Shown here one piece after another: positions 4,868 to 15,186 of a DNA stretch of 64,000 bases. The stretch is from Pseudoruegeria aquimaris. GTDB lineage: Bacteria; Pseudomonadota; Alphaproteobacteria; Rhodobacterales; Rhodobacteraceae. The DNA lies in assembly GCF_900172235.1 (NCBI RefSeq), contig NZ_FWFQ01000013.1, forward strand, positions 1 to 64,000. The letters are read 5' to 3'. The notes beneath the pieces were generated by a model. That model searched no databases and was not told the DNA's origin. It saw nothing but the letters and a program-made list of their open reading frames with translations. Position 1 is the first letter of the stretch. Each line of letters starts with the position of its first letter. The position numbers and the translations under genes are program-made.

Positions 4868-6193
4868 ATGAACGATCACTACCGCGACATCCGAAAGATC
4901 GATCCGAGCCGGGGCGCCACCCTCGGAGACGGCACGCCCAACGATGCAGACCGCATCGAGATCGGCCCCACCCGGCTGGCCTTCAGCGAATGGGCCGCGG
5001 CGGGGCTGGAGCTGCCCGATCTGGCCGAGATGCGCCGCTTCCGCTGGGCGCGGCTGACCCGGCACGTGGTGGAGCGCGACTACGGCGGCCTGCTGATGTT
5101 CGATCCGCTCAACATCCGTTACGCCACCGACAGCACCAACATGCAGCTCTGGAACACCCACAACCCGTTCCGCGCGGTGCTGCTCTGCGCCGACGGCTAC
5201 ATGGTGATCTGGGATTACAAGAACGCCCCCTTCCTTTCGGGCTTCAACCCGCTGGTGCGCGAGGCCCGCTCCGGCGCCGATCTCTTCTATTTCGACCGGG
5301 GCGACAGGATCGACATCGCCGCCGACGTGTTCTCCAACGAGGTGCGCCTGCTGATCGAAGCCCACGGCGGCGGCAACATGCGGCTGGCGGTGGACAAGCC
5401 AATGATCCACGGGCTGCGGGCGCTGGAAGCGCAGGGCTTCACGGTGATGCCCGGCGAGGAAGTCACCGAGAAATCCCGCAGCATCAAGGGGCCCGAGGAA
5501 ATCCGCGCCATGCGCTGTGCCTCCCACGCCTGCGAAATCGCGGTGGCCGAGATGGAGGCCGCCTGCGCTCCGGGCCTGAGCGAAGACGAGGTCTGGGCGG
5601 TGCTGCACGCCGAGAACATCAAGCGCGGCGGCGAATGGATCGAGACGCGGCTGCTGGCCTCCGGCCCGCGCACGAACCCCTGGTTCCAGGAATGCGGCCC
5701 CCGCGTGATCCGCAACAACGAGATCGTCGCCTTCGACACCGATCTCATCGGCAGCTACGGCATCTGCGTGGACATCTCGCGCACCTGGTGGGTGGGCGAT
5801 CGCGCCCCCCGGCCCGACATGATCGCCGCCATGCAGCACGCCCATGAGCACATCATGACCAACATGGAGATGCTCGCCCCCGGCGTGGCCATGCGCGATC
5901 TCACCTTCAACAGCCACCGGCTGGCCCCGGAGTACCAGAAGCAGAAATACGGCTGCCTGATGCACGGCGTCGGCCTTTGCGACGAGTGGCCTCTCATCGC
6001 CTACCCCGACAAGTTCGTGGAAGGCGCCTTCGACTACCAGCTCGAGCCGGGGATGGTGCTCTGCGTGGAAGCGCTGGTGAGCCCGGAGGGCGGCGATTTC
6101 TCGATCAAGCTGGAAGACCAGGTGCTCATCACCGAGACCGGCTACGAGAACCTCACCCGCTACCCCTTCGATCAACGCCTGATGGGGCTCTGA
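4868..6193 (+). CDS. dddP: Dimethylsulfoniopropionate lyase DddP (M24 fold)
   Basis: Cleaves DMSP to dimethyl sulfide and acrylate in the cytoplasm. At 441 aa it has the length of roseobacter DddP, and the start MNDHYRDIRKIDPSRGATLG is characteristic of it. The protein belongs to the M24 creatinase/aminopeptidase fold. The expected dinuclear metal ligands are all present: Asp290 and Asp292 (FDTDLIG), Asp302 (VDISRTWW), His366 (LMHGVGL), Glu401 (LCVEAL) and Glu416 (IKLEDQV). This is a constant shift of five from the numbering of the published DddP structure (295/297/307/371/406/421). The ATG at 4868 follows GGGAGG at good spacing. It stands alone, divergent from the DUF3445 gene, with no acrylate-processing genes beside it. 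Confidence 0.95.
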   Translation: MNDHYRDIRKIDPSRGATLGDGTPNDADRIEIGPTRLAFSEWAAAGLELPDLAEMRRFRWARLTRHVVERDYGGLLMFDPLNIRYATDSTNMQLWNTHNPFRAVLLCADGYMVIWDYKNAPFLSGFNPLVREARSGADLFYFDRGDRIDIAADVFSNEVRLLIEAHGGGNMRLAVDKPMIHGLRALEAQGFTVMPGEEVTEKSRSIKGPEEIRAMRCASHACEIAVAEMEAACAPGLSEDEVWAVLHAENIKRGGEWIETRLLASGPRTNPWFQECGPRVIRNNEIVAFDTDLIGSYGICVDISRTWWVGDRAPRPDMIAAMQHAHEHIMTNMEMLAPGVAMRDLTFNSHRLAPEYQKQKYGCLMHGVGLCDEWPLIAYPDKFVEGAFDYQLEPGMVLCVEALVSPEGGDFSIKLEDQVLITETGYENLTRYPFDQRLMGL

Positions 6194-13136: not shown

Positions 13137-14321
13137 ATGATCACCGTCGAGGAGGCCCTAACCCATGTGCTGGCCCTCGTCGCGCCGCTCGAGGCAGAAC
13201 CCGCGCCGCTGATCCAGGCCGCCGGCCGCGTGCTGGCCGCCCCCGTCGTGGCACGGCGTGATCAGCCCCCCTTCCCCTCCTCCGCGATGGACGGCTACGC
13301 GGTCTCCGCCGCGCAGGTCGCGCCCGGCGATCGCTTCACCGTGATCGGCGAAAGCGCGGCCGGACACCGCTTCGCCGGCCGGCTCGGCCCCGGCGAGGCG
13401 GTGCGCATCTTCACCGGCGCGCCGGTGCCAGAGGGCGGGCGGCGCATCCTCATCCAGGAAGACGTGCAGCGCGAAGGCGACGTCATCACCGTGGGCGCGC
13501 GGCCCGATGCCGCCGCCTACATCCGCCCGGCCGGCGGCGATTTCGCCGTGGGCCATGCGCTGGAGGCCCCCCGCGTGCTCTCGCCCACCGATCTTTCCCT
13601 GATCGCGGCGATGAACTGCCCCGTGGTGCAGGTCACCCGCCGCCCCGTCGTGGCGCTGATCGCCACCGGCGACGAACTGGTGATGCCCGGCGAAACGCCC
13701 TCGCCCGACCAGATCATCGCCTCCAACAGTTTCGCCCTGAAGGCGCTGTTCGAGGCCCACGGCGCCGAGGTCCGCCTGCTGCCCATCGCGCGGGACACGC
13801 GGGAGTCCCTCACCACCGTCTTCGGCCTCACCGAGGGGTCCGATCTGATCGTGACGACCGGCGGCGCCTCGGTGGGCGATCACGATCTCGTCGGGGAGGT
13901 CGCCGCGACCCTCGGCATGGAGCGGGCCTTCTACAAGGTGGCGATGCGGCCCGGAAAGCCGCTGATGGCCGGGCGCATGGGCGATGCCGCCATGGTCGGG
14001 CTGCCGGGCAACCCGGTCTCCTCCATCGTCTGCGCGCGGATCTTCGTCGTGCCCATGCTGCGCCGGATGCTCGGGCTGCCCCACGGCCCCGTGCCGCGCA
14101 AACACGCACGGCTCGCCGTGGACATCGGCGCCAACGGCCCGCGCGAACATTACATGCGCGCGCGTATCGAAGACGGGCGCATCACCCCCTTCGCCCGGCA
14201 GGACTCCTCCCTCCTGACCATCCTGGCCTCCGCCAACTGCCTGATGGTGCGCGCACCCCATGATCCGCCCCGCGAAGCCGGCGCCGACGTCGCCTATATT
14301 CCCTTCGGCGCCAGCGATTGA
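13137..14321 (+). CDS. moeA: Molybdopterin molybdenumtransferase
   Basis: Inserts molybdate into adenylylated molybdopterin. 394 aa with the MoeA N-terminal domain (PFPSSAMDGYAV), the MPT-binding domain (TTGGASVGDHD, KVAMRPGKPLMAGRMG, GLPGNPVSS) and the C-terminal beta-barrel. It starts one base after moaC. Its TGA stop (14319-14321) lies inside the -35 hexamer of the lexA promoter, so end of translation and SOS control share the same bases. Confidence 0.97.
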   Translation: MITVEEALTHVLALVAPLEAEPAPLIQAAGRVLAAPVVARRDQPPFPSSAMDGYAVSAAQVAPGDRFTVIGESAAGHRFAGRLGPGEAVRIFTGAPVPEGGRRILIQEDVQREGDVITVGARPDAAAYIRPAGGDFAVGHALEAPRVLSPTDLSLIAAMNCPVVQVTRRPVVALIATGDELVMPGETPSPDQIIASNSFALKALFEAHGAEVRLLPIARDTRESLTTVFGLTEGSDLIVTTGGASVGDHDLVGEVAATLGMERAFYKVAMRPGKPLMAGRMGDAAMVGLPGNPVSSIVCARIFVVPMLRRMLGLPHGPVPRKHARLAVDIGANGPREHYMRARIEDGRITPFARQDSSLLTILASANCLMVRAPHDPPREAGADVAYIPFGASD

Positions 14322-14346
14322 CACAAAACAGGAACAAGGGTAGAAC
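14318..14346 (+). promoter_or_regulatory. lexA promoter (-35/-10)
   Basis: A consensus TTGACA (14318-14323), 17-bp spacer, and TAGAAC (14341-14346) as -10. The -35 overlaps the moeA stop codon, and the -10 is overlapped by the second LexA half-site. The predicted start near 14353 would leave a leader of about 135 nt before the lexA ATG. Confidence 0.8.
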
Positions 14347-14357
14347 ATGTATCGAAC
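14332..14357 (+). promoter_or_regulatory. LexA operator, three GAAC half-sites
   Basis: GAAC occurs at 14332, 14343 and 14354, each separated by exactly seven bases. This gives two overlapping copies of the alphaproteobacterial SOS box GAAC-N7-GAAC. The array spans from the spacer through the -10 to the expected transcription start, so LexA binding would block RNA polymerase. This is autoregulation of lexA. Confidence 0.9.
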
Positions 14358-14490
14358 GCGTCTTGCAGGCGTGGGGTATCCGTAGCGCACGCCGTCCTTC
14401 GCCGGCGGCAGGCGGGCCGGCCCGAGGGCGCCCCACGCGCCCGGCAGGGCACGTCGGATCAAGAGCGCACCGCACCGGAGGAGCGAGCAC

Positions 14491-15186
14491 ATGTTGACGA
14501 AGAAGCAGCTCGAACTGCTTGAATTCATTCACTCCCGCGTCCAGAAAGACGGCGTGCCGCCCTCTTTCGACGAGATGAAGGAGGCGCTGAACCTGCGCTC
14601 CAAATCGGGCATCCATCGGCTCATCACGGCGCTGGAGGAGCGCGGTTTCATCCGCCGGCTGGCGCACAAGGCCCGCGCGCTGGAGATCGTGAAGCTCCCC
14701 GAAGCCATGGAACAGAAAGGCTTTTCCCCCCGCGTGGTGGAAGGCGGCGCCTCCGCGCGCAGCGCGCAGCCGGCCGCCAGCCAGCCGGTGAGCAGCGCCG
14801 AGGTGATCGATCTGCCGATGATGGGCCGCATCGCCGCCGGTACCCCGATCGAGGCGATCAGCCAGCCCGAGCACCACGTCTCGGTGCCCGGCCAGATGCT
14901 CTCCGGCAAGGGCGCGCACTACGCGCTTGAAGTCAAAGGGGATTCCATGATCGAGGCCGGGATCAACGATGGCGACATCGTGGTGATCCGCGAAACCTCG
15001 TCGGCCGAGAACGGCGATATCGTGGTGGCGCTGGTGGAAGGCTATGAAGCCACGCTCAAGCGCTTCCGCCGCCGCGGCAACATGATCGCGCTGGAGGCCG
15101 CGAACCCGGCCTATGAAACCCGCGTTCTGCCCGAGGGGCAGGTGCGCGTGCAGGGCCGCCTCGTCGGGCTGATCCGCACCTACTGA
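14491..15186 (+). CDS. lexA: SOS repressor LexA
   Basis: Represses DNA-damage genes and self-cleaves when stimulated by RecA. 231 aa: winged helix in residues about 1-65 ([17 protein letters not shown]), linker, then an S24 peptidase domain. The scissile bond is Ala116-Gly117 (RIAAG), the nucleophile is Ser152 (KGDSMIEAG) and the general base is Lys190 (ATLKRF). GGAGG lies eight bases before the ATG. The long leader and triple operator upstream show it has its own promoter in addition to possible read-through from moeA. It converges with comEC, 11 bp away. Confidence 0.98.

Follow-up and report, generated by a model that had tools for sequence, protein, structure and literature searches.

The lexA promoter of Pseudoruegeria aquimaris carries three copies of the half-site word GAAC in line, separated by two steps of 11 bp, in the 64,000-nucleotide stretch of DNA analysed here (the window). 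The array is real, is more than a chance triple, is conserved in the family on comparison with about 250 relatives, and is a variant of a known operator type. It probably forms an extended autoregulatory operator, in which the in-line third half-site replaces a second, inverted operator present in other alphaproteobacteria. lexA genes carry repressor sites that seem surplus to need, and the double operator of Escherichia coli lexA brings no measurable benefit. In the alphaproteobacteria, extra half-sites come in two alternative arrangements maintained throughout the class: most families have the inverted form and one family has the in-line form. This maintenance across a whole class points to selection on the extra sites, and exchanging one arrangement for the other makes the purpose of surplus sites testable. 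The in-line form also raises the matter of the way in which a symmetric LexA dimer would read half-sites placed head to tail.

Architecture of the lexA promoter

The gene at 14491..15186 (plus strand, like all features of this locus) encodes a LexA protein of 231 aa that matches NCBIfam TIGR00498 over its full length (residues 2-230; 189.7 bits against a cut-off of 110.95). By eye, its translation has RIAAGTP, GDSM and ATLKRF in place as the putative Ala-Gly cleavage site, serine and lysine of the autoprotease. Read directly, the promoter at 14318-14357 is TTGACACAAAACAGGAACAAGGGTAGAACATGTATCGAAC. The -35 hexamer TTGACA (14318..14323) is followed by a CAAAAC extension (14324..14329), by LexA half-site 1 (14332..14335) in the spacer and, at a spacing of 17 bp from TTGACA, by the -10 hexamer TAGAAC (14341..14346), which contains half-site 2 (14343..14346). 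TAGAAC, with four of six matches to TATAAT, is weak and is the sole -10 candidate at this distance; it lies below the threshold of a generic sigma-70 scan, which misses it. Half-sites 1 and 2 form a core box, GAAC-N7-GAAC (14332-14346), which spans the spacer and the -10 and has the sequence that defines alphaproteobacterial LexA operators. Half-site 3 (14354..14357) follows half-site 2 at N7, about the predicted transcription start, and by sequence these two make a second GAAC-N7-GAAC with half-site 2 common to both.

An initial annotation had set the three GAAC words at 14332, 14343 and 14354 and taken them for LexA half-sites; every coordinate is correct, and the words do read as half-sites of the alphaproteobacterial direct-repeat type. 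Its placing of the array across the -10 and the start is right for the transcription start and wrong for the start codon, an ATG at 14491 that lies 133 bp past half-site 3. It had also recognized, accurately, that TTGACA contains the TGA stop (14319-14321) of the upstream gene, a putative moeA of 394 aa (13137..14321 in the list of open reading frames), whose name is that of the annotation and fits a MoeA-type sequence. The sister species (G150, L031) has the overlap too, but in the third member of the genus (G151, L032) moeA ends approximately 40 bp earlier and the overlap is absent; it looks like gene crowding rather than a regulatory device.

The lexA leader (14358..14490) is unusually long in this genus: in two species the first GAAC precedes the ATG by 159 and 127 bp, where 47-65 is typical. 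A riboswitch or attenuator in the leader was rejected, since there is no match in Rfam, folding is not above that of shuffles (z-score 0.65 in the window; weak, at -1.27, in the sister species) and no terminator was found in the leader. An upstream ORF at 14347-14385 (MYRTRLAGVGYP) was rejected as well: its ATG precedes the predicted transcription start, and the sister-species frame has no stop there.

Occurrence of the triple

By chance alone the window should hold about one GAAC-N7-GAAC (mean 1.03), so that counts of the pair mean little in themselves. The exact triple GAAC-N7-GAAC-N7-GAAC has a single occurrence in the 3.69-Mb genome, at lexA, and its reversed control pattern has zero matches there. 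Elsewhere, one relative (G023) has the repeat type GAACnnTGCAyGAAC, with an 11-bp period, dispersed over 46 places, about 20 per strand, near-uniform and unlinked to LexA; these 46 triples were set aside. The recurrent triple GAACCAGAnnAGAACATTCATGGAAC, present in eight or so genomes, was considered as a second LexA array and rejected, being coding sequence in the one locus checked (L073), at the start (MNVLIWFRND) of a photolyase-like protein. In a further genome (G114; L091, ~1460-1530), an AT-rich triple GTTC array immediately precedes the gene of a small protein (MNNLPDP...), which is possibly another LexA target.

Conservation within the Rhodobacteraceae

We surveyed lexA upstream regions from one genome per genus of the family, together with an independent set of named public genomes, by which the window falls among Rhodobacteraceae/Paracoccaceae relatives. 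Of these 212 promoters, 206 (200 distinct) could be anchored and six could not; anchoring required TTGAC and GAAC, and the invariance of those letters is hence partly by construction. With that proviso, TTGACAcAAAAcnGGAAC-N7-GAAC is nearly invariant in the 206 promoters, and half-site 1 is invariant both here and in 42 promoters from other families, all selected on a GAACN7GAAC or a TTGAC-GAAC anchor. The sixth base of the -35, outside the anchor, is A in 97% of the family promoters, and their -10 columns show T at 89% and 70% and A at 100% in columns 9-10.

A third GAAC follows half-site 2 at N7 in 51 promoters and at N6 in 28, or 79/206 in total (~38%), and any other spacing is found in 0 to 2 promoters each; N6 and N7 correspond to a step of 10-11 bp, one helical turn. 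Among the 200 distinct promoters, 76 have the third GAAC at N6 or N7 against a background of 0.29% per position (binomial p ~1e-114, relatedness ignored). This is strongly non-random: the third GAAC is no chance word but a conserved feature. The conservation in relatives on which the initial annotation had staked its idea is thus borne out in so far as the word is inherited and is far above background (79/206 against 0.29%), but the exact GAAC is kept in part of the family only. The looser nAAC is present at N6 or N7 in 162/206 promoters and 44/206 have no AAC; many roseobacters show AAAC alone, or nothing, at the third position.

The distribution of these states follows the LexA protein tree. 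Over 104 rows, 10 changes account for the exact N7 state where shuffled labels require 27.6, and 7 account for the N6 state where they require 14.2; the rows grouped with the window (the sister species, Haematobacter and other relatives) all have the exact GAAC at N7. The third half-site is therefore inherited, with several losses or shifts since; support for many of the deep branches is weak, and we name no ancestral state. In the sister species, whose LexA is 96% identical, the three GAAC are kept although the surrounding bases differ. Two relatives (G046 and G042; L122 and L162) have four in-line half-sites at lexA, the array in L162 lying 239 bp before the start codon.

The CAAAAC extension behind the -35 is a separate feature of the family, near-invariant in the 206 promoters (0.75-1.8 bits per column) and random in other families (close to zero bits). 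Its AAAC stands 6 bp, or half a turn, before half-site 1.

An inverted second box in other families

Among 48 lexA upstream regions from other alphaproteobacterial families (L332-L379), 42 contain GAAC-N7-GAAC. These promoters resemble those of the Rhodobacteraceae in having TTGAC, GAAC-N7-GAAC over the -10 and an added LexA-like sequence just downstream, but differ in that the extra box is inverted rather than in line. GTTn-N7-GTTC occurs no more than 60 bp downstream in 33/42 (0.5% in shuffles), at a near-fixed distance that is exactly 10 bp after half-site 2 in 21 of those 33, and in 0/206 family lexA promoters; conversely, an in-line third GAAC is found in 1/42. On the opposite strand the inverted box reads GAAC-AAAnnnn-nAAC, and its AAA spacer matches the core box of those families, GAAC-yAAAnTA-GAAC, as expected if one protein reads both boxes. 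We take the inverted box to be a second, convergent lexA operator, and we read the pattern as a lineage-specific replacement of the second autoregulatory operator, the Rhodobacteraceae apparently having lost the inverted operator and gained the in-line half-site. A literature search, whose reach did not extend to the survey of Erill et al. 2004, returned no report of a third half-site or of an inverted second lexA box.

Other LexA-type boxes and an array downstream of recG

Further LexA-type boxes were recognized from sequence upstream of recA (GAACAAGAGGCGAAC, the identical word in both genus relatives) and of uvrA-like, uvrD-like, mmcB-like and imuA-like genes, named from a reading of their N-termini. 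No exact third half-site was found at the other LexA-type boxes examined in this genome, except in an array next to recG on another contig (G000:C20, ~4970-5010). There, after recG, GTTC-N6-GTTC-N6-GTTC-N7-GTTC abuts a TTTAC -35, downstream of which stands TATGAGAAC-N7-CAAC. At this locus, with the peptide region beside it (L293 4940-5090, minus strand), and at its counterparts (L294-L297, L301-L330), as many as four or five GTTC words lie in phase, accompanied by GAAC-N7-CAAC.

The pattern GTTCNNNNAAAGTTCTTNNC is found in 99/150 genera, almost always once per genome, and its control is near zero. Thirty of these loci were read: 25 follow the RecG C-terminus, and 28 encode, at a constant distance, a short peptide of 40 residues with one hydrophobic segment (consensus MltdiK.vL.RS..TLvqDAlGAAAL.VMLvaALHLPglv). 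In its ORF, conservation is highest at codon position 2 and lowest at position 3, and the peptide has no match in Pfam, NCBIfam or PHROGs. It is a candidate new SOS membrane peptide, resembling by anatomy alone small SOS membrane peptides such as SidA of Caulobacter, a division inhibitor of 29 residues (PMC4211646). As a tentative and rather doubtful extension, Rhodobacteraceae LexA may read three or more in-phase head-to-tail half-sites as one extended operator, in a protein assembly that differs from a single dimer on each box; this would apply to lexA and to the promoter of this predicted SOS peptide alike, the in-line array having replaced the inverted operator.

Function of the third half-site

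LexA acts as a dimer. Bound to the core box over the spacer and the -10, it would block RNA polymerase, and as this box covers the -10 it would do so unaided. Half-site 3, one turn on and on the same helix face, would extend the operator over the transcription start. Most likely it adds LexA contacts: a second dimer could hold on with a single arm, or the core dimer could slide between half-sites 1-2 and 2-3. With three half-sites, a dimer could sit on 1-2 or on 2-3, or the DNA could carry one and a half dimers. In each case promoter occupancy would be expected to rise, and the promoter would remain occupied at lower LexA levels, or close faster as LexA recovers. The looser nAAC is plausibly a usable half-site too, given that the GAAC-N7-CAAC pair is kept in 23/30 promoters of the recG-downstream array.

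Half-site 3 sits roughly at the point where transcription is expected to start, and the conserved A at the third position could partly be the initiating base. One alternative goes further and holds that LexA does not read half-site 3 at all: the conserved A or AAC would mark an initiator or discriminator, and the preceding G would be due to chance or drift. Consistent with this, alignment column 23 holds A in 90-93% of the family promoters and in 56% even of those from other alphaproteobacterial families, and many family members keep AAC without GAAC. An initiator, however, has no need of GAAC, yet the exact word recurs at the two favoured spacings in 79 promoters and at other spacings in two at most; AAC at the third position is nearly absent from the other families (3/42), and the four-copy in-phase arrays at two lexA promoters are left unexplained. 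On balance we think this account unlikely. That half-site 3 is a remnant of a lost second operator with little present effect is highly improbable: the exact word has been lost repeatedly on the tree and the class-typical inverted operator is gone from the Rhodobacteraceae, as such an account would have it, but what remained of an inverted box should be GTTC rather than GAAC, and entire clades retain the in-line word at a fixed spacing.

The initial annotation had suggested that two LexA dimers compete or cooperate on the overlapping boxes, sharpening the SOS response. The geometry would permit this, both pairs having the N7 spacing of a full box with half-site 2 in common, and spacing in the family is confined to one helical turn. 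Against it, the N6 spacing of 28 promoters makes the second pair an off-consensus box, and in E. coli, whose lexA has two complete operators, neither interdimer cooperativity nor a difference in circuit behaviour is seen (PMC7440846), so that we give this version little credence. An extended operator, with half-site 3 contributing additional LexA contacts, is the reading that we prefer.

Comparison with known systems

The alphaproteobacterial LexA box is a direct repeat, GTTCN7GTTC or GAACN7GAAC, as in the SOS regulon of Caulobacter (PMC12700426). The P. aquimaris promoter agrees with it in the half-site word, the N7 spacing, the direct-repeat order and in lexA itself being a target, and departs from it in number, the published motif having two half-sites whereas the window has a third in line and two relatives a fourth. 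The operators I and II of E. coli lexA are comparable in their negative autoregulation, more LexA capacity than at most SOS genes and a position near the transcription start (PMC7440846). They differ in being two complete palindromic operators with four half-sites, whereas the window has three on one helix face, the middle one in common. A matched E. coli strain with a single operator was the same in induction, dynamic range, kinetics and fitness (PMC7440846); coming from a different system, this result is a caution, and not a refutation, for dimers that would compete or cooperate here, and it counts against the extended operator as well.
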